From NCBI RefSeq assembly GCF_964340395.1, contig NC_135551.1, positions 14,777,003 to 14,841,002 of the forward strand: a stretch of DNA of 64,000 bases. Direction: 5' to 3'. This stretch comes from Glandiceps talaboti (lineage: Eukaryota; Hemichordata; Enteropneusta; Spengelidae). The notes beneath the pieces are model-generated. The model was not told the DNA's origin. It did no database searches and worked only from the letters and a program-made list of their open reading frames with translations. Of the stretch, positions 18,911-45,839 are shown piece after piece; within the stretch, counting starts at the first letter, position 1, and the number at the start of each line of letters is the position of its first letter. The position numbers were made by a program, and so were the translations under genes.

Positions 18911-20488
18911 TTACTTTTGCGGTGTCATATATATGTCTTGACTTCTAGGCTCAAGACTTTGATAACTGTCACCATTTTTGGGATCATTGAGTGAAGTGTA
19001 AACAGGAGTCTCCACAGGTCCTACACGTTGATAATTATCTTCAGTTTTGATATTAGCGTGTGAGTCTTGGAGTTTGTTTTCATCAACACCATCTACTTCA
19101 TTTCGATCATCAGTCTGCCGTCGATATCTCAAGATATAAACAATGACAATGATGGCCATACCAACTCCGACCAAGAGTCCTAGGAGTACGCCACCAACGA
19201 CTACACCAGCCATACCTGACGGTGAGAACTGATTAGTTGCTGTTTTGCGGCACCTCTCAAATTCAGCTACTACATCTCTTTCTGTAGGTCCATCTATACC
19301 ATCACTAGTTGTTTGAACCTCGGCCGTACAATTGTATTCTTTCGTTTTGAGACTTGTCAGTTGTGTAGTGTTGATTCCATTATTATTAGATGTCGTTTTC
19401 GTGGTGACTGTTGTCATGGGTTGTGGTACAATGACGAGTATCACTGAAGCTGTAGACGTTCCCATAGCATTAGTAGCGTTACAAGTGACCGTATATTCAC
19501 CATTATCATCCATTAAAAATCTCGTCATTGATAGTGATTTGTTGTCATTGGAAAGATGTATATTACCACTCTCTAATGTAAATCTAGGAATATCTGGTAA
19601 AGTCCACTTGTACTTCTCCACTGCTGGGTTTGCTTCTGTATCACATGTGAAAGTGATGAGAGCATCTTCCTCTGAGACGGTTTGAGAAGAAGACATGATT
19701 TGTATACTTGGCTTATATAGAACGTTGAATGGTCCAAGTTGACATGTTTTGTTGGATTGAAATGTTGGGTGAAAACTTGAACAAGAAAATGACGCTTGAG
19801 ATTCTTCTTTAGTTGGTGTCCATAAATATTGAATAAAACGATAGCCATTGCTTCCCTGAATTCCCTTTTTTGTCTCTTCTATATGACGTGTTACATTCCC
19901 TACCTTATACCATTGTAGTGTTATTTGTGGTACACCAGTTGGGTCTGTTGAACATGTTAAATAAACATGTTCACCTTCAGTAACGTTCAAGTCATTCGGC
20001 CCATCGTAACCAATCGAGCATTGAAGATTGCCAGTCTCAGGGTAAACGGTATTTCGTACGTGAGCTGTATCTGATTTTATTACTATAGCAGGAGTAGTCG
20101 ATTCAGGACTTCTCACAACACAGATATACTCTCCATTATCAAATTCAACGTGTGAAACATCGGCTTGAATCTGTAGATTGTATGTAGATTAATACTGTAC
20201 TGATATCGACCCATTGACAGAATAACGATCGTCAGTATAATTAGTGAAGACATAGATAGCATTTGCTTTACTTATCGCAGTTCCATCCTTGTACCAAACG
20301 ACCGTCTGACTTGATTGTAGGTTTTTAACGGTGCACCTTAAAGTGAGAGTTATTTGGCTGGTGTTATCATACTTGAATTTGTGACTCTGATCTGAAGGTT
20401 GTACGTAGAAGGACGGTTCCAGGCCACCACATAATACAATCGTTAATAGGGAGCTGATGAGGTTCGTCAACAGTAAGAACTTGTACAT
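18911..20488 (-). pseudogene. Ig receptor A (short ITAM-like tail), broken by one inserted stop codon
   Basis: One reading frame of 526 codons from ATG 20488 (MYKFLLLTN..., signal peptide) to TAA 18911. An extra TAA codon at 20189-20191 sits where receptor C reads CAGTAT-TCTACA, so it is an in-frame 3-bp insertion and the frame is intact on both sides. Layout: V-like Ig1, Ig2 with an extra Cys pair, Ig3 with DNGEYTVTC, Thr-rich stalk, TM helix GVVVGGVLLGLLVGVGMAII, then a short tail with EDNYQRV, YTSL-x8-YQSL (ITAM spacing) and DIYMTP. The ectodomain is closest to C; stalk, TM, tail and 3'UTR are closest to B. It could be a recent pseudogene, a null allele or a sequencing error; initiation downstream would lose the leader. 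Confidence 0.85.
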
Positions 20489-20580
20489 CGTGGTTGAGAT
20501 TAACATATAAAAATTAGAGACAGTAAATGTGTTTGTCCACTGACGGAAATATAATTTCAATGTTGCTAATTTTTTCATTT

Positions 20581-20594
20581 CCTCAATACGGGTA
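20581..20594 (-). promoter_or_regulatory. Conserved upstream element of receptor A
   Basis: TACCCGTATTGAGG on the - strand, about 93 nt before the start codon, matching all 14 bases in the same place upstream of B, C and D. Confidence 0.6.
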
Positions 20595-20682
20595 TTACAA
20601 TTTAGTAATACGTTAAACATAACTGAGTGCATATCTCCTATAAAAGTTGTTGATTTCGCTGAAAGATTTAGTGGATAATTCT

Positions 20683-21262
20683 GCATAATTAATTATTTTC
20701 GGTAATTAGGCTATAACCTAAGACTGCATGTTTCAATTTCAATATAATTTACTTCATACATCAAATATAACAAACTTTGTATGTCCTATAAAGTTGTTGA
20801 TGTACCATTACAGTGTTAATAAGTAATTTGCATGATTAATGATTTTCGGTAATTAAGATATATCATAAGTATGCATACTTGAAATTCAATATCATTTAGT
20901 ACATACGTTAACCATAGCAAAGCAGATATGTCCTATAAAATTTGTTGATATAACTTACAGTTTTCATGAAATATTTGCATAGTTAATGATTTTAGGTATT
21001 TAGACTGTATCTTAAAAATGCAAGCTTCAAATTTTGTATAATATGGTACATATATCAACCACAATAATACGCACCTGTCCTATTAGGTTTGTTCCTACAA
21101 CTTTTACCTTTAATGAGTATTTTCAATAATGAACGATATCCAGTAGCAGTATCATGCACTCTTCAAATTCCGTATAATTTGGCACATACATTAACCTAAG
21201 AAACCACGCTTGTCCAAAAAAAAGCCTGTTACCATAGTATTGTTAAGTTTAATGAGTTATAT
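20683..21262. repeat. 147-bp tandem repeat, four units, upstream of receptor A
   Basis: Units begin at 20683, 20830, 20977 and 21124 (three exact 147-base steps; the last unit is about 139). Each starts near GCATAATTAATGATT, then GGTAATTA, TTCAAATTC.ATAT.ATTT, GTACATAC, ATGTCCTATAAA and TTGTTG. Diverged single copies lie at 1500-1635 and 8310-8565. Confidence 0.8.
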
Positions 21263-21324
21263 GCATAATTAGTGATTCCCTTACGGGAGGCACTCAGTTT
21301 AAATCTGGTATCAGACCTGTTGTG

Positions 21325-21425
21325 ATTTCGGAATGCTCTGTTCCTTCGGCCTTCGTTATAGTGTGTAATGTACGCCGTGGCGCCCTCACACACTGCACAA
21401 CCCCTTTCAAGAGCAGGCCGTTGAA
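21325..21425 (+). repeat. Dispersed repeat, partner of 17490-17595
   Basis: See 17490-17595; same orientation, with small deletions. Confidence 0.7.
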
Positions 21426-21522
21426 AGTAGGGGTCTCACGACGTATCTCACCGTCTATCCGTTCGTCTTATATTCCTTTACACAAACATATACAATACAA
21501 ACACATGACTACAACCCCTGTC

Positions 21523-21636
<114 letters not shown>

Positions 21637-21639
21637 AAA

Positions 21640-22935
21640 GCAATGCCTATACAAATTCATGATCTTTAGCAGTGAGTAACAAACAATTAAAACAGACACA
21701 AAGTTGGAAATATATGCCGGCTCACTCAGCGATCTATAGTCTTTTATTTAACCATTGTGGTCACAGTGACCTTTGACCTGTCCTACGTTTTCAACTTCGC
21801 TGAACTTTAAAAGAAGATGACAGAAGTGAGCAAAGTTCACACGCTGCCTTGATAAACACATTCACATGCCGTGTAATTTATTCTGCAGAATCAATCGTAA
21901 GGTATGTAAGGATCTATTTTAAGACACTTTCTTTTGTGATATGCTATTTGAGAAATGCGTTAGTCTGACCTCTGTTAGTTTATTTGCCAGAGTATTTTGT
22001 TGCCGGTAACTTCGGTTATGTGAGGTCACACACATAAGTCTGGCAAATCTGGTTAAAAAGTCCAATAGTGTTTATCACAACAGATTGTATTAATGATGTT
22101 TTTATATAACGTGTTAAGTACTGGACATCATATGTTAATGACTACATCACGAGACTTCCAACTAGATTTCATAAAATAATATGAACGGTTTATTTTTATT
22201 TATTTTATTTATTTATTTTATTTTATTAAACTTCGACAATAACTCAAGGAACAAAAGGTCACACAGGTGGCAAGCACCTATATAAGAGCAACCCTCCACA
22301 TACAACAAATGGCATACACAAAAAGAAAACTAATAAGAACATTAAAAACAGTAAATACAATATATAAAAAATTTACACTAAGGAATCGAATAACATACGA
22401 GAACAGAATTAAGAAGAATTAAGACATACGACACTTGGCATAATGGCATCGATTGACCCATGTGCAAGTATTATAAGACAAAAAACTATTTTCCAAAAGA
22501 TTTCTATAAAATATACGGAGATCGTTTTTTATGAGTTAAAACTTACTGAAAACGGCAAGTCCGATTTGAATGGACAAGCGTTCCATGTATAAAATATTCT
22601 GTTAAAAAATGACTGTCGGAATGCGTCACTGCAAAATTGTGGCATAAGCTATCATCGTCTGAATTGAAATGTACATATTTATCAATATTAAGATCGTAAT
22701 CGTTATTAATACATTTCAAAAAGAATTCGCAATCAGACATCGCTCTTCTGTAGCTGAGGGGAAGAAGGTTTAAGGAAACAAGACGATCTTTATAATCAAC
22801 CACTTTACATTGATTGTAACCAAGAATGTATTTAGTAGCTCGTCTTTGGACATCCTCCAATTGAATCATTGATTTATGTGTACAAACAGACCAAAATTGA
22901 GTAGAGTAATCTAATTTAGTTCTAATAAAGAGATA
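21640..22935. repeat. Tandem segmental duplication, first copy (3'UTR piece plus LINE)
   Basis: About 1.3 kb nearly identical to 23105-24420 in the same orientation, offset about 1.46 kb. It contains a copy of the distal 3'UTR of an A/B-type receptor (including an AATTTATT polyadenylation-type site near 21878) and a LINE tail. No receptor coding sequence is attached. Confidence 0.8.
22185..22935 (-). mobile_element. LINE 3' end fragment, copy 1
   Basis: 5'-truncated non-LTR retrotransposon on the - strand. The frame at 22543-22869 carries IQLEDVQRRATKYILGYN and LNLLPLSYRRAMSD, the characteristic C-terminal reverse-transcriptase tail of Jockey/CR1-like LINEs. The 3' end (low coordinate) is an A-rich (AAATA)n tail at 22190-22225. 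A small deletion against copy 2 shifts the frame near NSDDDSL. Dead fragment. Confidence 0.75.
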
Positions 22936-23104
22936 TACGTTATGGGTTTATCCCTGTAGGGAATGGTACAGTCAACATTCGACTGGAGCTTGGAAGTATA
23001 AGGTATGGAATGGTGACTTAAGTCCCACAAATGTGATGCACGGAGTGGTTCGCCACGTCTTTATATGACAAAGGCATTGAACTTGGAATTTTGGCACAGC
23101 TTTA
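22936..23104. other. Flank copy matching 17760-17890
   Basis: GGGAATGGTAC.GTCA.CATTCGACTG and GATGCACGGAGTG blocks match the distal flank of receptor A. Confidence 0.6.
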
Positions 23105-24420
23105 TTTTAAAGCAATGCCTATACAAATTCATGATCTTTAGCAGTGAGTAACAAACAATTAAAACAGACACAAAGTTGGAAATATATGCCGGCTCACTCA
23201 GCAATCTATAGTCTTTTATTTAACCATTGTGGTCACAGTGACCTTTGATCTGTCCTACGTTTTCAACTTCGCTGAACTTTAAAAGAAGATGACAGAAGTG
23301 AGCAAAGTTCACACGCCGCCTTGATAAACACAATCACATGCCGTGAAATTTATTCTGCTGCATCAATCGTAAGGTATGTAAGGATCTATTTGAAGACAAT
23401 TTCTTTTGTGATATGCTATTTGAGAAATACGTTAGTCCGACCTCTGTTAGTTTATTTGCCAGAGTCTTTTGTTGCCGGTAACTTCGGTTATGTGAGGTCA
23501 CACAAATAAGTCTGGCAAATCTGGTTAAAAAGTACAATACTGTATATCACAACAGATTGTATTGGTGATTTTTTTATATAACGTGTTAAGTACTGGACAT
23601 CATATGTTAATGACTACATCACGAGACTTCCAACTAGATTTCATAAAATAATATGATCGGTTTATTTTTATTTATTTATTTATTTATTTATTTATTTTAT
23701 TTTATTAAACTTCGACAATAACTCAAGGAACAAAAGGTCACACAGGTGGCAAGCACCTATATAAGAGCAACCCTCCACATACAACAAATGGCATACACAA
23801 AAAGAAAACTAATAAGAACATTAAAAACAGTAAATACAATATATAAAAAATTTACACTAAGGAATAACATACGAGAACAGAATTAAGAAGAATTAAGACA
23901 TACGACACTTGGCATAATGGCATCGATTGACCCATGTGCAAGTATTATAAGACAAAAAATATTTTCCAAAAGATTTCTATAAAATATACGGAGATCGTTT
24001 TTATATGAGTTAAAACGTACTGAAAACGGCAAGTCCGATTTGACTGGACAAGCGTTCCATGTATAAAATATTCTGTTAAAAAATGACTGTCGGAATGCGT
24101 CACTACAAAATTGTGGCATTTTCAGTAAGCTATCATCGTCTGAATTGAAATGTACATATTTATCAATATTAAGATCGTAATCGTTATTAATACATTTCAA
24201 AAAGAATTCGCAATCAGACATCGCTCTTCTGTAGCTGAGGGGAAGAAGGTTTAAGGAAAGAAGACGATCTTTATAATCAACCCCTTTACATTGATTGTAA
24301 CCAAGAATGTATTTAGTAGCTTGTCTTTGGACACCCTCCAATTGAATCATTGATTTTTGTGTACAAACAGACCAAAATTGAGTAGAGTAATCTAATTTAG
24401 TTCTAACTGAAGAGATATAC
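23105..24420. repeat. Tandem segmental duplication, second copy
   Basis: Partner of 21640-22935. Both copies share the same LINE-to-flank junction (AGATTTCATAAAATAATATGA), so the LINE inserted before the duplication. Confidence 0.8.
23349..23354 (-). terminator. Polyadenylation signal of receptor B
   Basis: AATAAA in GAATAAATTTCA on the - strand, 1685 nt after the stop, or about 772 nt with the LINE taken out, matching A. Confidence 0.45.
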
Positions 24421-25038: not shown

Positions 25039-26568
25039 TCACTTTTGTGGTTTCATACATATGTCCTGACTTCTAGGTTCAAGGCTTTGATAATTGTCAT
25101 CACTGAGTGAAGTGTAAACAGGAGTCTGATAATTATCTTCAGTTTTGATATTAGCGTGTGAATCTTGCAGTTTGTTTTCATCAACACCGTCGAGTTTATT
25201 TCGATTGGCAATCCGCCGTCGATATCGCAAGACATACACAAAGACAATGGCCGTGGTACCAACCAGGAATCCTAAAAGTACGCCAACAACTACTCCACGG
25301 GCCATATCTGACGATGAGAAATGATTACTTACTGTTTTAAGGCACCGATCCATTTCAGCTATGACATATCTTTTTGTAGTTCCATCTATACCATCATTAG
25401 TTGTTTGAACCTCGGCCATAGAATTGTATTCTTTTGTTTTGGGACTTGTCAGTTGTGTAATGTTGATTCCGTTACCAGTAGATGTCGTTTTCATGGTGAC
25501 TGTTGTCATTTGTGGTGGTACACTGACAACAAGTATCACTGAAGCAGTTGACGTTCCAATAGCATTAGTAGCTGTACAAGTGACTGTATATTCACCATTA
25601 TCTTCCGTCAATAATCCCGTCATTGATAGTGATTTGTTTTCATTGGAAAGTTGAATATTATCACTCTCTAGCGTAAATCTAGAATTACCTGACAATGTCC
25701 ATTCGTACTTCTCCACCGCTGGGTTTGCTTCTGTATCACATGTGAAAGTGGTGGGAGTATCTTTTTCTGAGACGGTTTGAGACGAAGACATAATTTGTAT
25801 ACTTGGCTTATATTGAACGTTGAATGGTCCGAGTTGACAAGTTTTGTTGGACTGAAATGCTGGGTGATAGCTTGTACAAGAAAATAAGGGAAGGTATTCT
25901 TCTTTAGTTGCTATCCAATGGTGTTGAATAAACTTGTAACCATTGTCACCATGATATCCACTAGACGTTGTTAGCAAAGGCCATGTAACAATTCCTAACT
26001 TGCGCCATTGTAGTGCTGTTTTCGGCACACCTGTTGAGTCTGTCGAACACGTTAAATCAACTTGCGTCCCCTCGATAACGTTAAGATCATTCGGTCCTTC
26101 GTAACCAATTGTACATTCAAGAGTGTCAGTCTGGGGTGATACATAATTCCTGACGTAGGCTACGGATGACTGCATAACAGGAGTGGGTGAACTTGTCTTG
26201 ACAGCACAGGTGTACGGTCCACTATCAAATTCAGCATGAGAAGCATCTGCTTGAATCCGAAGATCTGATGACGTATATTGTCCATTTCCTGACTCAATTA
26301 CAGAATAACGACTGTCAGTCAAAGCAATGATGGAATATACAGTTGTTGATTGACTTATCTGAGCGCCGGACTTATACCATACCACCATCTGACCTGGTTG
26401 AATGTTCGACACCACACAGGATAATGTAACAGTTAATTGGTCGTTGCTGCCAAAGGGAAATATCACGCTTCGATCTCTAGGTTCAGTAATAAACGAAGGC
26501 TCTATGGTTTGTGCACCACACAATGCAACCATGAACAGAACATTACCCACTAACAGGAATGTAAACAT
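25039..26568 (-). CDS. Ig receptor B, three Ig domains, TM and short tyrosine tail
   Basis: 509 residues in one exon. I start at 26568 (MFTFLLVGNVLFMVALCGA, signal peptide) by alignment with A, C and D; the frame stays open 171 codons further up but lacks a leader there. Ig1 (Cys 51 and 121, WYKSG, D-x-G-x-Y-x-C), Ig2 (Cys 174 and 230, plus a second pair at 152 and 244), Ig3 (Cys 277 and 331, DNGEYTVTC), Ser/Thr-rich stalk, TM at about 424-447, then a 60-residue tail. Tail tyrosines: Y480, Y485 (YTSL) and Y493 (YQSL), only four residues between the two YxxL boxes, shorter than an ITAM. The third site seen in A (IYMTP) is ICMKP here. Likely a cell-surface immune-type receptor; the ligand is unknown. 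Confidence 0.85.
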   Translation of the reverse strand: MFTFLLVGNVLFMVALCGAQTIEPSFITEPRDRSVIFPFGSNDQLTVTLSCVVSNIQPGQMVVWYKSGAQISQSTTVYSIIALTDSRYSVIESGNGQYTSSDLRIQADASHAEFDSGPYTCAVKTSSPTPVMQSSVAYVRNYVSPQTDTLECTIGYEGPNDLNVIEGTQVDLTCSTDSTGVPKTALQWRKLGIVTWPLLTTSSGYHGDNGYKFIQHHWIATKEEYLPLFSCTSYHPAFQSNKTCQLGPFNVQYKPSIQIMSSSQTVSEKDTPTTFTCDTEANPAVEKYEWTLSGNSRFTLESDNIQLSNENKSLSMTGLLTEDNGEYTVTCTATNAIGTSTASVILVVSVPPQMTTVTMKTTSTGNGINITQLTSPKTKEYNSMAEVQTTNDGIDGTTKRYVIAEMDRCLKTVSNHFSSSDMARGVVVGVLLGFLVGTTAIVFVYVLRYRRRIANRNKLDGVDENKLQDSHANIKTEDNYQTPVYTSLSDDNYQSLEPRSQDICMKPQK

Positions 26569-26664
26569 GATGGTTTCAATTCGATATTTAAGACAATCTA
26601 TATAACTACATGTTCCATGTACACCTTCAAAACGACTGATATTGATTGCCGTCGATTTATATTT

Positions 26665-31636: not shown

Positions 31637-32191
31637 TATTACTACTGATCTTCGCACACAGCTGATAGACCAAGTAATAACACCCGAATCACTCTCATAT
31701 CTCATATCTGACTCAACTTCTGTATGTACGTACCAGGATCACACTTGAACTTTAAAGGGAATTAGCTCAGACTACACACAGTGTTTAAAGATCTACACTG
31801 GAAAACAAGGCAAGCACCCAGCATAGTGCCTCGTTCATTGACTTCCCGCGAAGCCAAGTCCTCTTGCCAAATCTGAGCTGAAGTGCCTGTCCCCCCAGTG
31901 TACTTTATTGTGACGTCCGTAAAGTCTAAATTTACATAACGCATGGCCAATGGCCAAATAATTAATGCACTCCATATACGCTTTTCTTAAAACATTGATG
32001 AATGATCAATATGAATCCTAGATATTTATGAAATGCAGACTGTCGTCTCATGTATTCGAGTATGCTTGGAATCCTGTGTGGTCTGAATCCGATATCCTTG
32101 AGACAGTCTATTGACCTTTCAGTCAAACTAGGACATGCGATGTTGTTAAAATATTAAGTTTACTGAAAATATAAATATGTCATCTGTGACA
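31637..32191 (-). repeat. 3' LTR of the Ty3/gypsy element
   Basis: 555 bp. By my reading it is identical to 37096-37650. On the - strand it starts TGTCACAG directly after a polypurine tract. CTAG flanks both outer ends (31633-31636 and 37651-37654), a 4-bp target duplication (5 bp if the shared A is counted). Confidence 0.95.
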
Positions 32192-32206
32192 CTTTCCCCT
32201 CTTTCC
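32192..32206 (-). promoter_or_regulatory. Polypurine tract
   Basis: GGAAAGAGGGGAAAG on the - strand, immediately before the 3' LTR. Expected plus-strand primer site. Confidence 0.85.
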
Positions 32207-33567
32207 AAAATTTGTAACGCCCTCGTTACAGACTAAAATATCTAAAAAATAATTTACCCTTCATAAATGAAAATTGAAAAGTCTTAGAAGTAATTAATGC
32301 TGTTTCGTATGAAGTGTTAGAAATGTAAAATTTATACGACCCTTGAAAACTAAGAGTGCTAAAATCTCAAATTCCGAACCAGATATACTTATTTAGTCAA
32401 CATGTACTTCATTGAATAAATGACATCAAAGAGAGACATCACAGATAATTCGAAAATTGAATCGTAGAATAATTATATCCTGAGTTGGCTATTGAATTGT
32501 GTACTTCTCAATCACATCACAAACATACGTTCGACTGGCCAGTCTTTTTCAATCATTCACACAATCATACTGATAGATATGACCATCCATAACGTACTGT
32601 TCGGGCCCCCTCTATTTTCATTAACACTACCAGACAAGTACAGTCATCAATAGAATTCTCAGGTCTAAAGAACTTTGCTAGGAATATTATATCTGCAGCA
32701 TTTAAAAGTTGAACATAAAGAAATATATATAAATAGGAGAATGTTTTAATGTTGACCAAGTTATACCCGATTCATCGTGTACATAACTAAATTATAACAT
32801 AAGTATTCCTATCTGAAAGGAATGTAGGTATCTGTCTCGTAAAATCAAATGATGACATTAAATATCTATGCTATGAATAAATATTAACTCTTAAATATTT
32901 CATCACGCCAATATTGAAAATTGTCACTGACAAACGGTCAGCATGCCATATTCGTGATCATATTCCAAATTGAATCTTTAACTGCAGACGAAATCAATAT
33001 TATGAAAAAATGGTGTAGCATAAAAGTGTGTGATAAACTATTTATGTCATTGACGTCGTCTGTGTTTAGTGAAGTCAAAATTAACCAGTCAATGTTATTC
33101 AAGTAATCTAAGTCCAGTAACTTGTGATTTCACCCTGATATCAGCTATCAAGAATACTGACCTAAATGTATTGTCTTACAGCTATCCTTAAGTTACACTA
33201 ACTAATCAGCTGTTACAGTCATCAAGAGAAGTCAGTTGCGCCAACACCATCATTGTCGTGTAAGAAACCCTACGTCATTATTTAAACATTACAGGCATCT
33301 TAGCTGTTCATCCATGTTTAAAATTTGACATCTTCAGTATGTTAACGACTTGTACAGAACTATTAAGACCATTAATATTAATCCAATAAGTCAATTTAGT
33401 TTTCATTACAAGTAACCTGATTGACCATAAGTAGGTTGGCAATTTTCTCATTGCAATTCAATATACCCTTTGAATCAATACCACTAGAAATTATGCACGC
33501 TGCTCAAGTGAAAATAGTCCTTTCTCATCGAGTATATGGGTGCAATTTTCTTTGTATCTATAAATGA
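32207..33567 (-). other. Internal 3' non-coding part of the Ty3 element
   Basis: About 1.36 kb between the pol stop and the polypurine tract, long for a chromovirus. Only short frames (32565-32759 -, 32921-33106 +); no envelope-like features seen. Confidence 0.6.
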
Positions 33568-36500
33568 TTATGGACATTTTTGTTTGCCCTTTGGTGACCC
33601 CATAATTGGAACTGGTGCACGTTTGAGGACCTCTAATGCAGCTTTGTTCAGATTCTGACTAGGTTCCCATGAGTTTTTGTCGGATGAAAATCCAGCCCAC
33701 TTGATTAGATATTGCAATTGACCATTTTTGTACCGTCCTTTCATAATTTTCTCTATACCAAAATAGTTATCATTGTCGTCTTTATCAGTATTTACATCAG
33801 AGTCATTCTCAACACTCTGTTCTAACCTCCGTCTCTCAGCACGTGTGCGTACATTGTTACGCCAAGTTTTAGAGGCTGTAGTCTGTATTTGCTTGCTTCC
33901 TGTTTCAGGAGCACTCTGGTACTGTGGGATGCTATACAATTCTGTATCAGATTGTAAATGGTAGTTTGTACTTTGTGTTCTTTGGTTCACTAACGGATCA
34001 ATGCCTTGGCTATCTTCTACATCGTCTGAAGTGTGCATGTCAGTATTTCTGCCACTTAGAAGATGGTCTGGCCGTAAACGGGCATGTTTTAACCTATTTG
34101 CATGAATCACCTTATTGTATTTCTTAGAACTGTCAATATATTGAAGTTTGAAATTGACAGGTGAGACTTGTTCCTTGATACGAAAAGGTCCCCGAAATGG
34201 ATGATGAAACTTTGGACTGCATCCAACTTTTACGGCTGGATGATGAAGATACACTATATCACCTACTGTAAACTTATGTGATGTATTCGCTTTTGCATCA
34301 TAACGCAATTTCATATCTGCTTGTGCCTTTGTTATGTTCTCCTTTGCTAACTGTATCGCCATGTTTCTACATCTTGCCATTTCATGAAGATGAAAATCGA
34401 CATTCCTTGATACACCTAGTCGCGGTAATATTTCAGCATCAACCGGAAGTCTAGGTTCAGTACCGAACATCACTTTGAAAGGTGACATTTTCGTAGTTTC
34501 TTGGGGTGTGGCCCTATATGCAAATAACACAGATTGGAGATATACATCCCAATCATCAGATTCGTCTGATGTATACATTGATAACATATCTAAAAGCGTA
34601 CTGTTCATACGTTCAGTGAGCCCGTTGCATGCTGGGTGATATGCAGATGAACGTGTCTTTGTAATATCAAAAAATCTACATACTTCCTTAATAAGATGTG
34701 ACATGAACGATGCTCCTTGATCTGATAACAAGGAATTTGGGAATCCATATACACAAAAGATATCCTCAAATAATACCTTAGCGACTGTTTCCGCCCGAGT
34801 ATTCGGAAGAGCGAAGGCCCATGCAAACTTGGAAAGATATTCTGTAACTACCAGAATGTAACTGTTTCCGCGTTTCGTAGTCTTTAATTTGCCTAAGAAA
34901 TCAAAACCAATGCGGTCCATTAAACCATTAACAGGTATTGGCAATAATTGACTTCTATAACGACGCCCTCTTTTTCTCATATGACAATGAGAACATGAAG
35001 CTACATAATCATTGACGTCCTTAAGTAGATTATCCCAATAGTATTTTGTTCTGATCGCATGTAATGTCCTTGAAGTTCCCAAATGACCTCCTGTGACATC
35101 ATCATGAATTCGCTTTAGTAAGTAAAGTTGTAATGTTTTAGGCACGACAAGTTGTCTAATACAATCTTTCGCCTTGTACGACTTTCCTGTGGGGGACCAA
35201 AAATGGTATAGGACATTGTTTAATAACACATAATTCGCATGCCCTTGAATTAATTTTTGTGCATGTTTTGCTTCTTTTGGTAGTTCACCATTCTCCAAAT
35301 AAGCTATAATAGGCTTTATGTGCCGGTCTGCTCTTTGCAATTTTGACATGTGTTCCGACCTTATGTCGAAGTCATCAACATCTATAACGTTATTAAGTGA
35401 AGAAGTAATCTCTGAGTTTCGCGAGTTATTTTGCCGGCTTAATGCAACTTCACTATCAGATTTCTCATATAAATACCTTATATCAACAATAGAATCATCA
35501 GCTGTGTTTGTTTGCATATGTGCAATTTCAGGTATGATAGTATTGTCTGGTATCTCCAGAGTTAACACTGAGGGAATGACATCGTCAGTTTGAGTGGCCT
35601 GACTTGTGCAAGTATCAGATGTACTAAAATCTGAATCTTTGTATGTCTCTTTTGGATATTTACGTCTTGATAGACAATCTGCATGTGGAATACTCAAACC
35701 TGATCTGTGCTCGATATCAAATGTATATTCCTGTACTTTTAATACCCATCTGGCTATACGACCGCTAGATGTTTTTGTTTTGAATAGATATGGCAAATTT
35801 GCATGATCAGTAACTACTGTAAAACGGTTTCCACGAAGATATGCATCACATTGAGCTAAACCATGCAATACTGCAAGAGCCTCACGTTCAGTCGTTGTAT
35901 AATTTCGCTGCCCACGGCTAAGCGATCTTCCTCCATAACAAATTGGATGTTCTACATTGTCCTGGTTTTGTGCTAAAACATAGCCAACACTATACGCAGA
36001 TGCATCGGTATAAAGGATAAATGGCTGTCCATATCGTGGATAACCTAATAGCGGAGCATTGACCAGTGCATGTTTCAATGTAACAAATGCCTGTTGACAT
36101 TTATCATCCCAGACGAACTTTTTGTCCTTTTTGAATAGATCATATAATGGGCCCGCAATCTTGGAAAAATCCTTTATGAACTTACGATAGAAGCCGGCTA
36201 AGCCTAAAAGGGACTTTAACTGTTTCACATTTTTCGGGACTGGAAAAGTTTTGACGGCTTGTATTTTATTTGGGTCAGTTGCAATACCATTCTCATTTAA
36301 GATATGTCCTAGAAATTTAACTTCTCGTTTGGCAAAATGACATTTCTTTGGACCAAGTTTGAGATTAGCTGAACGCAAACGTGTGAGGACCATTTCCAGG
36401 TGATCTAGGTGATCACTAAATGTTTTGCTGAACAAAATTAAATCATCCACATATATTACTAAGTTTTCCCACAGCATTTTTCGGAACAGAAACTGCATTG

Positions 36501-37164
36501 TTTGCTGAAACGAACAGCTACTATTGCGTAATCCCTGTGGTAAAGTCTTCCATTCAAATTTCCCATCAAGACTAACAAACGCGGTTTTGTACGAATCTTT
36601 GTCATTTATAGCCAATTGCCAAAATCCGCTTGTCATATCTAATGTAGTAAAGTATTTTGGAGCCTGACTTCCCACCATATCGATTGCATCTGTTACCCCT
36701 GGCAACGGAAATACTATCGGTACTGTTTGTTTGTTCAATTCTCTATAATCAACAACTAAGCGCCACCCCGCCCCTGAAGGTTTCTTAACGAGTAGTAATG
36801 GTGACGAATATGGTGATGTGGAGGGTTTAATTATTCCTTGATCTAGCAAATTATCTAATTGTCGTCTAATTTCATTTCTTTTCTCTGGTGAAACACGATA
36901 TGGTGGTCTAGATACTGGTCTAGCATTAGGTTCCAACTCAATTCGATGCTTGATCAAATCACAGTACCCTAATCTACCAGATTTATCTACAAAGGCATCC
37001 CTGTGCTTCCAAAGAATTGAGCGAAGATCAGTAGTAATATTGATGGAGATCCGGGGCTTGAACAACAGTAGTAATATTGGTGGCGATCCGGGCAATATTA
37101 CTACTGATCTTCGCACACAGCTGATAGACCAAGTAATAACACCCGAATCACTCTCATATCTCAT
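33568..37164 (-). CDS. pol: Ty3/gypsy pol: RT, RNase H, integrase, chromodomain
   Basis: 1198 codons without a break. Order: RT from about residue 73 (LVVDYRELN at 136-144, catalytic YVDD 238-241; the usual FG-L-NAP-F stretch is QGLRNSSCSFQ); RNase H (YTDAS at 385, TEREAL around 425, VTDHANL at 451); integrase with an HHCC zinc finger (GGHLGTSRT ... CSHCHMRK) and a DDE core (IGFDF, LLSDQGASF, GLTERMN); a GPF module (RGPFRI); and a C-terminal chromodomain (YLIKWAGFSSDKNSWEP). The chromodomain places it among chromoviruses. The first 40 or so codons read through LTR and junction sequence and are not a natural N-terminus. Gag and protease are missing. Confidence 0.95.
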   Translation of the reverse strand: MRYESDSGVITWSISCVRRSVVILPGSPPILLLLFKPRISINITTDLRSILWKHRDAFVDKSGRLGYCDLIKHRIELEPNARPVSRPPYRVSPEKRNEIRRQLDNLLDQGIIKPSTSPYSSPLLLVKKPSGAGWRLVVDYRELNKQTVPIVFPLPGVTDAIDMVGSQAPKYFTTLDMTSGFWQLAINDKDSYKTAFVSLDGKFEWKTLPQGLRNSSCSFQQTMQFLFRKMLWENLVIYVDDLILFSKTFSDHLDHLEMVLTRLRSANLKLGPKKCHFAKREVKFLGHILNENGIATDPNKIQAVKTFPVPKNVKQLKSLLGLAGFYRKFIKDFSKIAGPLYDLFKKDKKFVWDDKCQQAFVTLKHALVNAPLLGYPRYGQPFILYTDASAYSVGYVLAQNQDNVEHPICYGGRSLSRGQRNYTTTEREALAVLHGLAQCDAYLRGNRFTVVTDHANLPYLFKTKTSSGRIARWVLKVQEYTFDIEHRSGLSIPHADCLSRRKYPKETYKDSDFSTSDTCTSQATQTDDVIPSVLTLEIPDNTIIPEIAHMQTNTADDSIVDIRYLYEKSDSEVALSRQNNSRNSEITSSLNNVIDVDDFDIRSEHMSKLQRADRHIKPIIAYLENGELPKEAKHAQKLIQGHANYVLLNNVLYHFWSPTGKSYKAKDCIRQLVVPKTLQLYLLKRIHDDVTGGHLGTSRTLHAIRTKYYWDNLLKDVNDYVASCSHCHMRKRGRRYRSQLLPIPVNGLMDRIGFDFLGKLKTTKRGNSYILVVTEYLSKFAWAFALPNTRAETVAKVLFEDIFCVYGFPNSLLSDQGASFMSHLIKEVCRFFDITKTRSSAYHPACNGLTERMNSTLLDMLSMYTSDESDDWDVYLQSVLFAYRATPQETTKMSPFKVMFGTEPRLPVDAEILPRLGVSRNVDFHLHEMARCRNMAIQLAKENITKAQADMKLRYDAKANTSHKFTVGDIVYLHHPAVKVGCSPKFHHPFRGPFRIKEQVSPVNFKLQYIDSSKKYNKVIHANRLKHARLRPDHLLSGRNTDMHTSDDVEDSQGIDPLVNQRTQSTNYHLQSDTELYSIPQYQSAPETGSKQIQTTASKTWRNNVRTRAERRRLEQSVENDSDVNTDKDDNDNYFGIEKIMKGRYKNGQLQYLIKWAGFSSDKNSWEPSQNLNKAALEVLKRAPVPIMGSPKGKQKCP

Positions 37165-37650
37165 ATCTGACTCAACTTCTGTATGTACGTACCAGGATCA
37201 CACTTGAACTTTAAAGGGAATTAGCTCAGACTACACACAGTGTTTAAAGATCTACACTGGAAAACAAGGCAAGCACCCAGCATAGTGCCTCGTTCATTGA
37301 CTTCCCGCGAAGCCAAGTCCTCTTGCCAAATCTGAGCTGAAGTGCCTGTCCCCCCAGTGTACTTTATTGTGACGTCCGTAAAGTCTAAATTTACATAACG
37401 CATGGCCAATGGCCAAATAATTAATGCACTCCATATACGCTTTTCTTAAAACATTGATGAATGATCAATATGAATCCTAGATATTTATGAAATGCAGACT
37501 GTCGTCTCATGTATTCGAGTATGCTTGGAATCCTGTGTGGTCTGAATCCGATATCCTTGAGACAGTCTATTGACCTTTCAGTCAAACTAGGACATGCGAT
37601 GTTGTTAAAATATTAAGTTTACTGAAAATATAAATATGTCATCTGTGACA
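37096..37650 (-). repeat. 5' LTR of the Ty3/gypsy element
   Basis: 555 bp, matching 31637-32191 base for base as far as I can read. Its inner end runs directly into RT-coding sequence. Confidence 0.95.
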
Positions 37651-38706
37651 CTAGGACAAGACGACGTCAGTGTATATATATTTGAAACAGTGATATCATT
37701 TTGTTTCACACGACTGTATGTAGTGTGATCGCATTGTGAGTACAATTAAGGAGGTGTGTAAATTGTTACCATCGGAATGTATTGAACTAGAATACAGCAT
37801 TAAATAGTCTGGTTGTTTCTCTCCCTACTTAACTTGTACTAGAATGGTCAATATGAATTAAATCAAAGCAAATTACAGATATGAGCAAATTAAAAATGCA
37901 CAACTGCTTTTCAATTTTGATAATTTTAGCAAATTCTACATGGACTTTCAATGTGGATTTTTTATCAAATTATTATTACATGGGCAATGTGTTCACAGTG
38001 CTATGCTAATTCAAATTCGGTCTGTGATGTGCACCTCCTAAATATAGCCATTGTTGCTATGGTTACCACTGACCTGTCCTTTCAAAATACCCTTGCTATA
38101 CTCAGACCTGCCGACGAATAATAAAATGACATTTCGTGGCGCAAAGTTCACTTGCTGCTTTTTTAAGAATACCATTAATCACAGCCACTTGTGAAATTTA
38201 TTCCACTATTTTGAATATAAGGCACTTAAGGGGCTCTTTTAAAGGCGTCTTCTATTCTATTCATAAATCTTATTCAAGAATTGGATTAGTACGGCCTGTG
38301 TTTGTTTACTGATGACGTCAGTCTTGATGTCGTACCACTGTGACAGTTCTGTACGTTCAGGGAAAGACATCTTGACCATAAATGCTAACTTCACAAATTA
38401 CTAGCGACGTCATGGAACTTTCAACAATGATTATGTATATATACATTTTGACAAGTTGACAAATGTTGTTCTCAAATAACGGTTATTTACTATGGATACA
38501 TAAGGATTTTAAAAATATTTTATCTGTACGAGTATGTTGTGGTATATAGGCGCTAATTACAATAATCATTTTCTTAAAACAATTGTAAATGCCTTCTTGT
38601 ATATAACGACTGCATCTCGTCTATAAATAACACATGGTACATAGCTAATGGTAATTCTATCCTACCACTAAATGTAAATGTCATTGTGACAGATTCCATA
38701 TTCAAA
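37651..38706 (-). other. 3'UTR and flank of receptor C
   Basis: Resumes the duplicated block shared with 42436-43520. The last 150 bases before the stop codon are almost the same as in D. Confidence 0.75.
38197..38202 (-). terminator. Polyadenylation signal of receptor C
   Basis: AATAAA in GGAATAAATTTCAC on the - strand, 505 nt after the stop; the same context is found in A, B and D. Confidence 0.5.
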
Positions 38707-40980
38707 TTAAACCCTGATTTCTGCATACTCTGTACTCTCATCAGTCTCGTTGATTACCATGCTTTGTTTCTTATTCGTCAGACTTGGTTTCCTTGGTGAC
38801 AAGTCGAGTTCAGCGTAGGTCAACTCTTCTACGTTCTTTGTTCGTGGATAGTTTACCATGTCAACCTCATCTTCTTCATATGCTTCGTTTGTATCACCCG
38901 CGATGTCGTTTACCGACGTTCTAGCCTTAGATTGACGTTTCTTTTTCGACAAGTCAACCTCTGAGTACATGACGCTTGTATCACGAATGTCTTGTTCTCC
39001 TCCCACGTGACCCTCTGTCTCAGATGTGATGCCTTTCTCTTCATTGACATTACTATCGAGCTCATTTTGTTGTTGATCTGACTCTTTCGTTTCCATAGCA
39101 ATAAAGTTAGTGAAGACTTCACCACCAGTTTTACGTTTCTTTTTTGTCATGTCCACCTGTGCGTACTTATTACCCATGTCGAGAGAATCTTCTCTGCCAT
39201 TCTGTTCATGAAGCTGTATTTCTTGTGTCGACTGAGATTCTCGTCGTGTGGGCGCGACATCTTTTTGAGCCACACCACTTGTCGACTTACGCAAATTTGG
39301 TTTCACAGCAATAATTGGCTTTGAGTTTCGTGTCATCTGCTTACTTGGGACCACATTTGACGGAGCTATGTCTCTAGTGTTATGTGAACGTCGTATGTCT
39401 GTATCTGCACCATCAGCATTTTCCCTAGCTTTAGTTTTATCAGTTTTCTTCAAAGCAAGTTTTGCATGTAGTGTGATTTCAACAGAGTCGTATTCATTGC
39501 TGCTAGCAGATTGGTCAACATCATTAACGTTATCATATGCAGCATTAGATGAACTTGAATATGGTGATATCTCTTCTCTGTTATTATCACAACTCTCGTA
39601 ACACACATTCTCTTTTGAGATAAATTCATCTGATGATTTATTCTGTGTTGATTTTCTTCGTGATTTCATAACACAGACTATCACTATGATAATGATGATA
39701 AGTACAATAATGAAACCAAAACCACCAACAGCGCCCCCAATGATGATTTGTGTATCCATATTACTTTCTTGTTTATCGGCTGCAAGATTAGTTACATCAT
39801 TCTCTTCACTTGTGGTCATTTTACTTACATCTTCAACTGTCGTGTGAATCTGGCTGTATATACCGTTAGTGTTCGTAATCTCCCGAGTCTCTGAATACAG
39901 TCCACTGGATGTAGTCGTAGATGGTGGTATACTAACAACAAATGTAACTGAGTCAGTAGACGATCCAATAGTATTAGTAGCATTACAAATGACTGTATAT
40001 TCACCATTATCTTCCATCAGAAATCCCGTCATTAATAGTGATTTGTTTTCATTGAAAAGTTGAATATTACCACTCTCTAGTGTAAATCTAGGAATATCTG
40101 GTAAAGTCCAGTCGTACTTCTCTACCGCTGGGTTTGCTTCTGTATCACATGTGAAAGTGATGAGAGTATCTTCCTCTGAGACGGTTTGAGAAGAAGACAT
40201 GATTCGTATACTTGGCTTATATTGAACGTTGAATGGTCCGAGTTGACAAGTTTTGTTGGATTCAAATGTTGGGTGAAAACTTGTACAAGAATATGATGCT
40301 AGAGATTCTTCTTTTGTCACTGTCCATAAATGTTGAATAAAAAGGTAGCCATTACTTCCCTGGATTCCGCTTACTGTCGTTGCTATAGGCCGTGTTACAT
40401 TCCCTACCTTGTACCATTGTAGTGCTGTTTGTGGTACACCAGTTGGGTCTGTTGAACACGTCAATTTAATCTCTTCACTTTCAATAACATTGAAGTCATT
40501 CGGTCCATGGAATCCAATGGTGCATTGAAGATCCCCAGTTTCAGGGTAAACGATATTTCGTACGTATGCTATATCTGATTGTATGACAGGAGTCGATCCA
40601 AGTCTTATCACAACACAGATATACTGTCCATTATCAAATGCAGCATGAGAAGCATCGGCTTGAATCTGTAGATTGTATGTAGAATACTGTCCTGATATAG
40701 ACCCATTGACAGAATAACGATCGTCAGTATAATCAGTGACGACATACATTGTCTCTGCTTTACTTATTGCAGTTCCATCCTTGTACCAAACAACCTTCTG
40801 ATCTGATTGTAGGTTTTGAACGGTGCACCTTAAAGTAAGAGTTACTTGGTTGGTGTTACCATACGTGAATGTATGACCCTGATCTGAAGGTTGTACGTAG
40901 AAGGAAAGTTCCTGGCCACCACATAATACAGTCATTAATATGAAGCTCATGAGGTTAGTCAACAGTAGCCACTTGTACAT
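38707..40980 (-). CDS. Ig receptor C, long tail with ITIM and ITSM motifs
   Basis: 757 residues in one exon, start MYKWLLLTNLMSFILMTVLC (signal peptide) at 40980; upstream in-frame codons are ignored because they precede the leader. Ig1 (Cys 52 and 122), Ig2 (Cys 175 and 232 plus Cys 153 and 245), Ig3 (Cys 278 and 332), stalk about 350-409, TM about 411-438 (a long Ile-rich helix), cytoplasmic tail about 320 residues. Tail sites: Y606 (YAQVDMTKKKRK), Y672 in VMYSEV (ITIM), Y722 in LTYAEL (ITIM), Y752 in TEYAEI (ITSM-like), plus Y461, Y482 and Y497 nearer the membrane. By the known roles of these motifs the tail should recruit SH2 phosphatases or adaptors. Likely an inhibitory-type immune receptor; the ligand is unknown. 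Confidence 0.9.
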   Translation of the reverse strand: MYKWLLLTNLMSFILMTVLCGGQELSFYVQPSDQGHTFTYGNTNQVTLTLRCTVQNLQSDQKVVWYKDGTAISKAETMYVVTDYTDDRYSVNGSISGQYSTYNLQIQADASHAAFDNGQYICVVIRLGSTPVIQSDIAYVRNIVYPETGDLQCTIGFHGPNDFNVIESEEIKLTCSTDPTGVPQTALQWYKVGNVTRPIATTVSGIQGSNGYLFIQHLWTVTKEESLASYSCTSFHPTFESNKTCQLGPFNVQYKPSIRIMSSSQTVSEEDTLITFTCDTEANPAVEKYDWTLPDIPRFTLESGNIQLFNENKSLLMTGFLMEDNGEYTVICNATNTIGSSTDSVTFVVSIPPSTTTSSGLYSETREITNTNGIYSQIHTTVEDVSKMTTSEENDVTNLAADKQESNMDTQIIIGGAVGGFGFIIVLIIIIIVIVCVMKSRRKSTQNKSSDEFISKENVCYESCDNNREEISPYSSSSNAAYDNVNDVDQSASSNEYDSVEITLHAKLALKKTDKTKARENADGADTDIRRSHNTRDIAPSNVVPSKQMTRNSKPIIAVKPNLRKSTSGVAQKDVAPTRRESQSTQEIQLHEQNGREDSLDMGNKYAQVDMTKKKRKTGGEVFTNFIAMETKESDQQQNELDSNVNEEKGITSETEGHVGGEQDIRDTSVMYSEVDLSKKKRQSKARTSVNDIAGDTNEAYEEDEVDMVNYPRTKNVEELTYAELDLSPRKPSLTNKKQSMVINETDESTEYAEIRV

Positions 40981-41075
40981 CATGGTTGAGATTAACATAT
41001 ACAACAGCAGCGACAGTGAATATTTTTGTCTTCTGACGGGAAGTACAATTTTAATGTCGCTGATTTTTTTCATTT

Positions 41076-41090: not shown

Positions 41091-41179
41091 TTTTCTCTTT
41101 TTTCTAGTCTCGTAAATGTAAACGGGAACGAGAATAGTTGCATGAGTGAATATAAACAATAACCCTTCATGTAAAGCCA

Positions 41180-42045: not shown

Positions 42046-42138
42046 TAATGTGCAGTGTTTTTAAATATGTAAGTCTTTTTTTCTGGATAAGTTCCCTTTC
42101 TCCCCGTTTAAGAATGTTATCAGAACCAATATAATAGT

Positions 42139-43014: not shown

Positions 43015-43020
43015 TTTATT
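43015..43020 (-). terminator. Polyadenylation signal of receptor D
   Basis: AATAAA in GGAATAAATTTCAC on the - strand, 501 nt after the stop. Confidence 0.5.
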
Positions 43021-43520
43021 CCACTCTATTCAATATAAGACACTTAAAGGGCTGTTTTTACAGACGTCTTCTATTGTCAAATTCTATTCAAGAAATGGGT
43101 TAGTACGGTCAGCGTTTGTTTACTGACCTCAGTCTTATTGCTGTCGTTATACCACTGTGACAGTTCTATACGTTCAGGTAAATACATCTAGACCATAAAT
43201 GCTAACTCAACAAACTACTAGTGACGTCATGGAACTTTCAACTATGGGTTTATACAGTCAGACAAATCGACAAATGTTATTCTCCACTAACAGATATTAT
43301 TGTGATTTAATGATTAATAAAATGTTTTATCTATATACGGGTATCTTGTGGTATGCGCTAATCAGGATATTAATTTTTTGAAAATGTGTAAATACTTTCT
43401 GGAAATACATGTAAAGACTAGGCTAACATATCTTCTATAAATGACACATGGTACATAGCTAATGGTAATTCTATCCTACCACGAAATGTAAATGTCATCG
43501 TGACAGATTCCATATTCAAA

Positions 43521-45839
43521 TTAAACCCTGACTTCTGCATACTCTGTACTCTCATCAGTCTCATTGATTACCATGCTTTGTTTCTTATTGGTCAGACTTG
43601 GTTTCCTTGGTGATAAGTCGAGTTCGGCGTAGGTCAATTCTTCTACGTTATTTGTTCGTGGATAGTTTACCATGTCAACCTCATCTTCTTCATATGCTTT
43701 GTTTGTATCACCTGCGATGTCGTTTAGAGGGGTCCTTGCTTCGAGTTTACGTTTCTTTTTCGACAGGTCAACCTCTGCGTACATAACGCTTGTATCACGA
43801 ATGTCTTGTTCTTCATCCTCCTGAATAGGTGTCGCCGTTGTGCTGCCTTTGTCTTCAGCGATATTACTGTCGAACTCATTCTGTTGTTGATCTGACCTAA
43901 GGCTTTTAGTTTCCTCGGAGTTAATTTTTGTGAAGATTTCGCCACCGGTTTTACGTTTCTTTTTTGAAATTTCTACCTGTGCATACATATCACTTGCATC
44001 AACAGGGCCTTGTATGTCATTCTGTTCATGAAGTTCTATTTCTTTTCTGGACCCGGATTGTCCTCCCATAGACACAACATCTCCTGACTTGCGAATGTTT
44101 GGTTTCACAGCAATCATTGGCTTTGAGCTGCTAGGTGTCATTTTAGTATTTGGGACACCATTTGATGGACCTGTGTTTCCAGTGTCACTTAAACGTCGCA
44201 TGTCGGTATCAGCACCATCAGCATTTCTCCTAGATTTACTTTTATCAATTCTCTTCAAAGCAAGTTTAGCATGTATTGTGATTTCAACAGAGTCGTATTC
44301 ATTGCTGCTAGCAGATTGGTCAACATCATTAATGTTATCATACATGTATGCAGTATTGGATGAACTTGATATCTCTTCTCTGTTATTATCACAACTCTCA
44401 TAACAGACATTCTCTTTTGAGATGAATTCATCTGATGATTTATTCTGTGTTGATTTTCTTCGTGATTTCATAACACACACTATGACGATGATAATGATGA
44501 TAAGTACAATAATGAAACCAAATCCGCCAACAGCGCCCCCAATGATGATTTGTATATCCATATTACCTTTTTGATTATCCGCTGCAGAATTAGTCACACC
44601 AGTCTCTGTGGTCATTTTATTTACATTTACCATTGTCGTTTGAATCTGGGTGTATATACCGTTAGTGTTCGTGATCTCACGAGTGTCTGAATACATTCCA
44701 TTGGCTGTAGTCGTCGTCGGACTAAAGGTAGTTATCGTTGCCATGGTTACTGAAGTCGTAGATGGTGGTATACTGACAACAAATGTAACTGAAGCAGTAG
44801 ACGTTCCAATAGCATTAGTAGCTTTACAAGTGACTGTATATTCACCATTATCTTCCATCAAAAATCCCGTCATTGATAGTGATTTGTTTTCATTCGAAAG
44901 TTGAATATTAACACTCTCTAGTGTAAATCTAGGAATATCTGGTAAAGTCCATTCGTACTTCTCCACTGTTGGGTTTGCTTCTGTATGACATGTGAAAGTG
45001 ATGAGAGTATCTTCCTCTGAGACGGTTTGAGAAGAAGACGTGATTTGTATACTTGGCTTATATTGAACGTTGAATGGTCCAAGTTGACAAGTTTTGTTGG
45101 ATTGAAATGTTGGGTGATAGCTTGTACAAAGATATGCCGCAAGGTGTTCTCCTTTATTAGGTGTCCATGTATGTTGAATAAATGGCCATGGGAATTGATT
45201 GTCTCCCCTTGTCCCGGTTGTTATTTCTAGGTGCTGTGTTACGTCCCCTACCTTGTTCCATTGTATTGCTGTTTTGGGTACACCAGTCGGATCCGTTGCA
45301 CACGTTAAACGAACCTCATCACCTTCAATAACATTAAAGTCATTTGGTCCATGAAAACCAATGGAACATTGAAGCGCTCCTGTTGCAGGGTTAACGATAT
45401 TTCGTATGTAAGCTGTAGCTGATTGTATTACAGGAGTCGTCGATCCAAGTCTTGTCACAGCACATACATACTGTCCATTATCAAATTCAGCATGAGAAGC
45501 ATCTGCTTGAATCCTTAGATTGTATTGAGAATATTGTCCCGTTCTTGACACAATGATAGAATAACGAGTGTCAGTTAAACCAGTGACGGTGTAGATTGCT
45601 GTTGCTTTACTTATCGGAATACTATTCTTGTACCAAACCACCTCCTGATCCGTTTGAAGTTTGAACACGGTACATGTCAAAGTAAGAGATAGTATATAGT
45701 TACTACCAAACTGAAATCGCAGGCTTTGGTCTTCAGGCTCGATGTAAAAAGAAACGTTTGTGTTCTGGGCACTACACAATAAGCTTACTGTCACGATCGT
45801 GAAACCAAGGAAGTTCGTTATCTGCATTGACCCGTACAT
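43521..45839 (-). CDS. Ig receptor D, long tail with ITIM and ITSM motifs
   Basis: 772 residues in one exon. Start at 45839 (MYGSMQITNFLGFTIVTVSL, signal peptide), matching the C start; Met5 is an alternative. Ig1 (Cys 56 and 126), Ig2 (Cys 180 and 238, extra pair 158 and 251), Ig3 (Cys 284 and 338), Thr-rich stalk somewhat longer than in C, TM about 430-456, tail about 315 residues. Tail sites: Y619 (YAQVEISKKKRK), Y687 in VMYAEV (ITIM), Y737 in LTYAEL (ITIM), Y767 in TEYAEV (ITSM consensus TxYxxV). The TM and juxtamembrane region are almost identical to C. Ig1 is the most diverged domain. Likely an inhibitory-type receptor paralogous to C. Confidence 0.9.
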   Translation of the reverse strand: MYGSMQITNFLGFTIVTVSLLCSAQNTNVSFYIEPEDQSLRFQFGSNYILSLTLTCTVFKLQTDQEVVWYKNSIPISKATAIYTVTGLTDTRYSIIVSRTGQYSQYNLRIQADASHAEFDNGQYVCAVTRLGSTTPVIQSATAYIRNIVNPATGALQCSIGFHGPNDFNVIEGDEVRLTCATDPTGVPKTAIQWNKVGDVTQHLEITTGTRGDNQFPWPFIQHTWTPNKGEHLAAYLCTSYHPTFQSNKTCQLGPFNVQYKPSIQITSSSQTVSEEDTLITFTCHTEANPTVEKYEWTLPDIPRFTLESVNIQLSNENKSLSMTGFLMEDNGEYTVTCKATNAIGTSTASVTFVVSIPPSTTSVTMATITTFSPTTTTANGMYSDTREITNTNGIYTQIQTTMVNVNKMTTETGVTNSAADNQKGNMDIQIIIGGAVGGFGFIIVLIIIIIVIVCVMKSRRKSTQNKSSDEFISKENVCYESCDNNREEISSSSNTAYMYDNINDVDQSASSNEYDSVEITIHAKLALKRIDKSKSRRNADGADTDMRRLSDTGNTGPSNGVPNTKMTPSSSKPMIAVKPNIRKSGDVVSMGGQSGSRKEIELHEQNDIQGPVDASDMYAQVEISKKKRKTGGEIFTKINSEETKSLRSDQQQNEFDSNIAEDKGSTTATPIQEDEEQDIRDTSVMYAEVDLSKKKRKLEARTPLNDIAGDTNKAYEEDEVDMVNYPRTNNVEELTYAELDLSPRKPSLTNKKQSMVINETDESTEYAEVRV

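Follow-up and report, generated by a model that had tools for sequence, protein, structure and literature searches.

Paired receptors in which one partner carries an immunoreceptor tyrosine-based activation motif (ITAM) and the other an inhibitory motif (ITIM) are characteristic of the immune cells of vertebrates, and a tunicate and a cnidarian offer partial parallels. Whether a comparable system exists in a hemichordate is the question raised by a 64,000-nucleotide stretch of the genome of the acorn worm Glandiceps talaboti (contig NC_135551.1, here C4:14777003-14841002; hereafter the window, in whose numbering features are given), which holds four immunoglobulin (Ig) receptor genes, designated A to D. 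These genes are probably members of a large, clustered invertebrate family of paired receptors that join like ectodomains to opposite tails, and the family is best read as a new invertebrate paired-receptor system. The sequence-only reading of the window had proposed such a system, and the proposal is borne out by two tail classes that occur in three cluster groups, an ectodomain tree in which these classes are mixed and recently shared V-domain DNA in seven of eight hand-picked pairs of opposite-tailed genes.

The four genes appear in the list of open reading frames (ORFs) as long minus-strand frames between 18911 and 46010, and span 18911-45854. With the exception of A, each stays open in a single frame between signal peptide and stop codon, and is laid out as hydrophobic leader, three Ig domains, stalk, one membrane helix and a tail with its own stop codon; to judge from the open frames, the coding regions would need no intron and the genes may be called intronless. 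The V-C2-C2-like ectodomain claimed earlier for all four agrees with Pfam, which assigned Ig models to each of them and detected no sushi domain in any (E 0.01), and with the predicted structure of the D ectodomain (44772..45767, minus strand), where three Ig domains in V-C2-C2 order were modelled with a nectin-like fold (mean predicted local distance difference test score, pLDDT, 91.9). The rest of the family aligns with D and would share the modelled fold, and the extra cysteines C134 and C227 of the D ectodomain are invariant in 33/33 rows of the alignment. Among the folds nearest to the model are nectin-like, Rst/SYG-1, DIP and IgLON proteins, while a sequence search of the PDB returned chains of CADM4, titin, nectin-1, TrkC and Robo1 among its matches, with CEACAM not among the matches listed.

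Gene A (18911..20488, start methionine at 20488; all features of the four genes are on the minus strand) is a type I receptor with three Ig domains, a transmembrane segment placed by hydropathy at 19130..19189 and a short ITAM-type tail of 72 residues, in which YTSL-x8-YQSL has canonical ITAM spacing (18953..19000) and the terminal box YMTP is degenerate (18920-18931). The assembled copy is a probable pseudogene, because an in-frame TAA inside the V domain (20189..20191), an extra codon relative to C when compared by eye, splits the frame. Gene B (25039..26568, start methionine at 26568) has an intact frame with three Ig domains, a transmembrane segment (25237..25296) and a tail of 65 residues with YTSL-x4-YQSL and CMKP (25048..25116), which appears decayed or derived and fails the ITAM consensus because its YxxL boxes are just four residues apart and the last box reads CMKP. 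The twin YxxL boxes first noticed in both short tails are thus present, with the reservation that one of the genes is broken and the other lacks a canonical ITAM.

Genes C and D are intact, with three Ig domains each and long inhibitory-type tails of 320 and 316 residues, respectively, and the tyrosine motifs earlier read from their tails are confirmed in full. Gene C (38707..40998, start methionine at 40998 or 40980; transmembrane segment 39670..39729) carries the ITIM-type VMYSEV (38956..38973) and a conserved terminal pair, composed of the ITIM LTYAEL (38806..38823) as its first half and the immunoreceptor tyrosine-based switch motif (ITSM) TEYAEI (38716..38733) as its second. Its counterparts in gene D (43521..45854, start methionine at 45854 or 45839; transmembrane segment 44472..44531) are the ITIM-type VMYAEV (43770..43787), the ITIM LTYAEL (43620..43637) and the ITSM TEYAEV (43530..43547).

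A search of the genome (590 Mb, 47 contigs), with D as the sole query, yielded 62 matches that were grouped by hand into at least 55 related loci, 52 on C4, two on C13 and one on C8; the count is a lower bound, as 55 of 1273 first-look candidates were scored. On C4 the loci lie at about 4.0-4.1, 5.1-5.4, 10.9, 13.5-13.7, 14.6, 14.8 (the window), 23.7, 24.6, 24.8 and 31.7 Mb. The members analysed come from 20 genome stretches and eight later ones, and are stop-to-stop frames of 415-951 residues plus the broken gene A; six fragmentary, broken or truncated ORF pieces (L009:1434, L013:4953, L013:5377, L014:1873, L023:1005 and L023:1854, where L denotes a locus) were omitted from the alignment. The tails of the eight later loci enter a motif count over 42 tails and are absent from the trees. 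No homologue of D was found at E <= 0.001 among the 7987 best word-sharing candidates of a sequence collection thought to hold few or no animals, which says little on novelty, and the prokaryote library NCBIfam has no family for D or B.

Two tail types recur throughout this family. Labelling by eye divided 34 ORFs into 11 of class A (short tail), 13 of class I (long tail with terminal (L/V)(T/M)YA(E/D)L...YA(E/D)(V/I/L)), three of class K (a third long tail) and seven others (x). The canonical ITAM, Yxx[LI]-x6-8-Yxx[LI], is present in 10 of the 11 class A tails (0.08 expected) and in none of the 13 class I tails, and the form YQ(S/T)L-x7-Y(M/T)(S/T)L is intact in eight of the 11 short tails, none of these eight from the window. 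ITIM-type motifs occur in 13/13 class I tails, at 28 sites against 3.6 expected, and ITSMs in seven of them (1.2 expected). Because the labels were given by eye, the motif count was repeated without labels over the 42 tails, where the same ITAM pattern was found in 10 (0.18 expected in shuffled tails), the terminal pair [IVL]xYA[ED][LVI]-x15-45-YA[ED][LVI] in 13 (0.000 expected) and both together in none. Hidden Markov models (HMMs) built with one cluster group left out, where 14.6 and 14.8 Mb formed one group and 24.6 and 24.8 Mb another, recovered all left-out tails of their own class (class A, E 7e-12 to 6e-6; class I, E 2e-20 to 2e-5), while across the three cluster groups no tail of the opposite class fell below E 0.02; one class K tail scored E 0.01 with the class I profile. 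As left-out tails are recovered by their own class, each tail represents one homology class spread along the chromosome and not a set of chance motifs. Beyond the 13 class I genes, L029 carries a fourteenth long tail by HMM (E 5e-17), which ends YADL...YAHV and fails the strict pattern, and L035, L037 and L038 match the long-tail HMM (E 6e-12, 6e-7 and 2e-12) without a complete terminal pair. The class K tails, found in L017, L019 and L020 at 10.9 Mb of C4, have repeated LYAKPMK-type (YAKP) boxes, to which L019 and L020 add a C-terminal NPLYES/NPMYES, and their ectodomains are close to those of the ITAM genes of L018.

The tail classes do not divide the ectodomains. Class A and class I genes are intermingled at 10.9, 14.6-14.8 and 24.6 Mb of C4, and in the maximum-likelihood tree of 34 ectodomains the class A label changes 10 times (mean of shuffled labels 9.5) and the class I label 10 times (10.6), so that the ectodomains of the two classes are mixed as shuffled labels would be. 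A single clade of the 11 class A genes was rejected on this tree (approximately unbiased test, p 4.5e-6), and separate trees of V, Ig2 and Ig3 from the 24 genes of classes A and I require eight changes each, against 8.2-8.3 after shuffling. The closest relative of window gene A is the opposite-tailed C, with 75% identity over 363 columns and a fork support of 100/99. The ectodomain trees proposed by the sequence-only reading, together with the genome-wide search it had called for, describe a family of mosaic evolution, in which tail labels are scattered over the ectodomains and the tails themselves are separated by HMMs.

How like ectodomains came to stand on opposite tails is indicated by raw synonymous divergence, taken segment by segment (V, Ig2, Ig3 and transmembrane segment plus tail) in nine hand-picked pairs, eight of classes A and I and one of classes A and K. 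In seven of the eight A/I pairs the tail has reached saturation, against differences at 7-25% of the synonymous sites of V, and the 95% intervals of V and tail lie apart. The values, in the order of the segments, are 0.09, 0.08, 0.12 and 0.77 for L015/L016; 0.07, 0.33, 0.70 and 0.73 for the L024 pair; 0.12, 0.73, 0.75 and 0.81 for the L023 pair; 0.09, 0.73, 0.71 and 0.81 for L021/L023; 0.24, 0.18, 0.13 and 0.73 for L013/L011; 0.25, 0.31, 0.06 and 0.66 for the L012 pair; and 0.18, 0.23, 0.21 and 0.78 for A and C of the window. The A/K pair L018/L019 gave 0.14, 0.09, 0.23 and 0.90. Given this contrast between a little-diverged V and a saturated tail, gene conversion affecting the recognition half is proposed; conversion or a crossover over the 5' half, either process acting in either direction, would account for shared V domains and divergent tails alike.

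The boundaries of the shared DNA bear on this proposal and on its nearest rival, which holds that tails were repeatedly recombined onto existing ectodomains by tail swapping or unequal crossing-over, and that the pairs are by-products without selection for a shared ligand. Nucleotide matches were followed in seven A/I pairs, all but L013/L011. Five of them share DNA from a point about 100-600 nt upstream of the methionine or frame: about 600 nt in L015/L016, 250 in the L023 pair, 150 in the L024 pair and about 100 in A/C of the window, each counted from the start methionine, and 270 nt in L021/L023, counted from the beginning of the open frame. Such upstream sharing recalls dog CEACAM1/CEACAM28, for which the available part of the source reports a tract, converted between an ITIM and an ITAM gene, that covers 5' flank, leader and N domain (PMC2110893), and speaks against a swap of tails, as do the block ends, which vary with the pair (after V in L023, after Ig2 in L024, just before the membrane segment in L015/L016), and the persistence of both tail classes in three cluster groups. 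The L015/L016 end is on the other hand where a tail swap would place it, two sequences give no direction, and two blocks start later, at the methionine for the L012 pair and within the gene for B/D; taken together, tail swapping appears an unlikely account of the pairs.

Two further readings concern what the receptors do. They could be adhesion or guidance molecules of an ordinary kind, in which the tyrosine motifs act as generic sites for SH2 binding or endocytosis and bear a superficial likeness to ITAM and ITIM; the nectin-like, Rst/SYG-1, DIP and IgLON folds near the D model would suit this, as would the failure of 19 of 42 tails in both strict motif tests. YxxL/V can also serve as a sorting signal. 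Such a role is nevertheless quite improbable, given that, by the labels assigned by eye, those eight of 11 short tails retain YxxL-x7-YxxL and 13/13 long tails the terminal pair, that no tail combines the two, and that at least 55 mostly clustered loci, some with broken members, and the sharing of ectodomains fit immune families better. Alternatively, the family could serve allorecognition and not anti-microbial defence, the receptors seeing polymorphic self or each other in the manner of Botryllus FcoR and Hydractinia Alr, with ITAM and ITIM tails setting acceptance or rejection. Acorn worms are solitary, which counts against this. The FcoRs moreover contain a sushi domain, according to the portion of the report available (PMC12065747), a domain that Pfam did not detect in the genes of the window, so that allorecognition, too, is rather doubtful.

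Several observations weigh against the paired-receptor interpretation itself. Beside the choice of pairs by hand, the class A and I labels were assigned by eye ahead of the tree and profile tests, the loose ITIM pattern is matched by five of the 11 class A tails as well (1.7 expected), and the tails with neither strict motif, cited above, belong here too. The activating side of the window itself is decayed, with A broken and B non-canonical, and in the pair B/D (0.48, 0.59, 0.15 and 0.82) only Ig3 is recent, at 15%, with V differing at 48% of synonymous sites; the late starts of the shared blocks in this pair and in the L012 pair point the same way. Four of the 13 class I genes (L021:1471, L025 twice and L026:4754) have no class A gene above 33% ectodomain identity, and two ITAM genes of L018 have no class I gene above it, though one of them pairs with the third tail class, K. 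Among the genes sampled, those from 24.8 Mb belong to class I or to the others, and at 4.0 Mb neither class A nor class I is represented. Finally, diversifying selection on the presumed binding face of V, whose strands were delimited on the D model, left no sign in 13 hand-picked pairs, where the ratio of replacement to synonymous divergence (pN/pS) was 0.52 and 0.55 against 0.66 elsewhere.

Candidate readers of both tails are encoded by the same genome. It contains 54 SH2 matches, and five places with two nearby matches were examined. On C23 lie two SH2 exon pieces with SHP-2 as best PDB match (E 2e-41 and 1e-34), and C12 has a pair of SH2 exons on the same strand, separated by about 9 kb, for which SYK (E 2e-26) and ZAP-70 (E 2e-10) scored best, so that exons alike to SHP-2 and to Syk/ZAP-70 are present as judged by these matches. 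The C12 exons, identified by their SH2 sequence, could possibly belong to a Shark-type Syk relative. The remaining three places we take, by eye, to resemble PLC-gamma, PI3K p85 and RasGAP. Separately, split SH2 exons recur in a cluster at C15:7520320-7739046, where an SH2 gene family has apparently expanded locally.

The course of signalling may then be pictured as follows. The V domain would bind a ligand, receptor clustering would let a Src-type kinase phosphorylate the tail, and tandem SH2 domains could then dock, those of a Syk-family kinase on the phosphorylated ITAM for activation and those of SHP-2 on the terminal pair for inhibition. Homogenisation of V domains suggests that partners may share a ligand; conversion would hold an activating and an inhibitory partner to one ligand, in several pairs under shared 5' DNA, and the cell would weigh opposite signals, or else a microbe exploiting the inhibitory receptor would meet the activating copy as a decoy. 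For other deuterostomes, the part of the literature available reports Syk-family and shp-1 homologues in Botryllus (PMC12065747), and an ITIM-bearing leucine-rich repeat (LRR) receptor of amphioxus that bound mammalian SHIP1, and to a lesser degree SHP1/2, in stimulated Jurkat cells (PMC8211107). Leaning only slightly to this side, we picture a natural killer (NK)-like hemichordate system of dozens of one-frame receptors, with a putative immune role, in which V conversion, often together with the 5' flank, keeps re-pairing receptors with an intrinsic ITAM and receptors with ITIM/ITSM on common ligands outside chordates, and in which the lack of introns would let tracts end anywhere in the recognition half.

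The closest known parallels are CEACAM1/CEACAM3/CEACAM28 and the Xenopus Ceacams, which have in common with the Glandiceps family a V-type domain shared by conversion, a receptor tail that itself carries the ITAM or ITIM/ITSM, and clustered genes, and for Xenopus conversion was demonstrated by synonymous-site profiles, as far as the sources are available (PMC2110893; PMC5112662). CEACAM domains reside in separate exons, whereas each Glandiceps receptor is one open frame, and unlike in CEACAM there is no excess of replacement on the binding face of the Glandiceps V domains; the family works like CEACAM-type paired receptors, yet is not classed as CEACAM. Xenopus FcR-like (XFL) genes resemble it in number (at least 75), in the intermingling of two signalling classes, in domain shuffling and in species-specific expansion, although the XFL forms considered activating are nearly or wholly tailless, according to the part of the report available, and the Glandiceps ITAM sits in the receptor itself (PMC2413239). 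Botryllus FcoRs are likewise type I Ig receptors of an invertebrate deuterostome, with 53 FcoR loci and ITIM or hemITAM tails; as described in the available text, they differ by a V-sushi-C2-C2 ectodomain, spliced exons and pairing with fester, where Glandiceps has V-C2-C2, one frame and a full two-box ITAM (PMC12065747). The same partly available source cites Hydractinia Alr as candidate allorecognition receptors of an invertebrate with ITAM/ITIM-type motifs (PMC12065747), and here the likeness to a cnidarian family is one of tail motifs. Another invertebrate Ig receptor with its own ITAM, oyster CgIgIT2, is expressed in haemolymph and recognises microbes in the portion of the report available, and has five Ig domains compared with three in Glandiceps; that portion makes no mention of an inhibitory counterpart (PMC11999971). 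Nectins and nectin-like proteins share the V-C2-C2 fold with the D model, while the tails of the Glandiceps family are described by their tyrosine motifs.

No such hemichordate family was met with in the literature searched, in the titles and abstract openings of the matches listed, which is weak evidence of novelty, as few subscription journals and preprints were covered and the searches were for the most part not specific to hemichordates. If true, such a large and clearly paired family in an ambulacrarian would mean that ITAM/ITIM logic has served to build fast-evolving recognition systems beyond the chordates. With each receptor contained in a single open frame, genome sequence directly displays conversion tracts, changes of partner and what becomes of broken copies, so that the decoy or arms-race view of how paired receptors evolve could be tested across many individuals.

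Apart from the receptor genes, no Rfam family at gathering score and, by ARAGORN, no tRNA was found in the window. Between B and C lies a Gypsy-type long terminal repeat (LTR) retrotransposon (31637-37652), named by eye from ORF 33568-37197; its insertion must be very young, as the two 557-bp LTRs are 100% identical. Two copies of a 1.3-kb repeat, 96% alike and with reverse-transcriptase-like fragments by eye, are located between A and B (21634-24420). A tandem duplication of about 6.1 kb (52844-63222; matching pairs 52844/59520 and 56719/62854), either real or an assembly artefact, includes helicase-like ORFs of 431 residues (54819-56114 and 60954-62249) that are identical by eye, and a 41-bp tandem repeat occurs in 21 copies at 50915-51786, with a similar unit at 58201-58425. 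Elsewhere in the assembly, the mitochondrial contig C40 consists of three tandem mtDNA copies 15.4 kb apart with the order ND2-COX1-COX2-ATP6 (by eye); ATA stands at usual isoleucine sites and appears to be read as Ile, the codon AAA is absent from COX1 and ND2, and gene order and codon usage presumably fit the mitochondria of enteropneust hemichordates.

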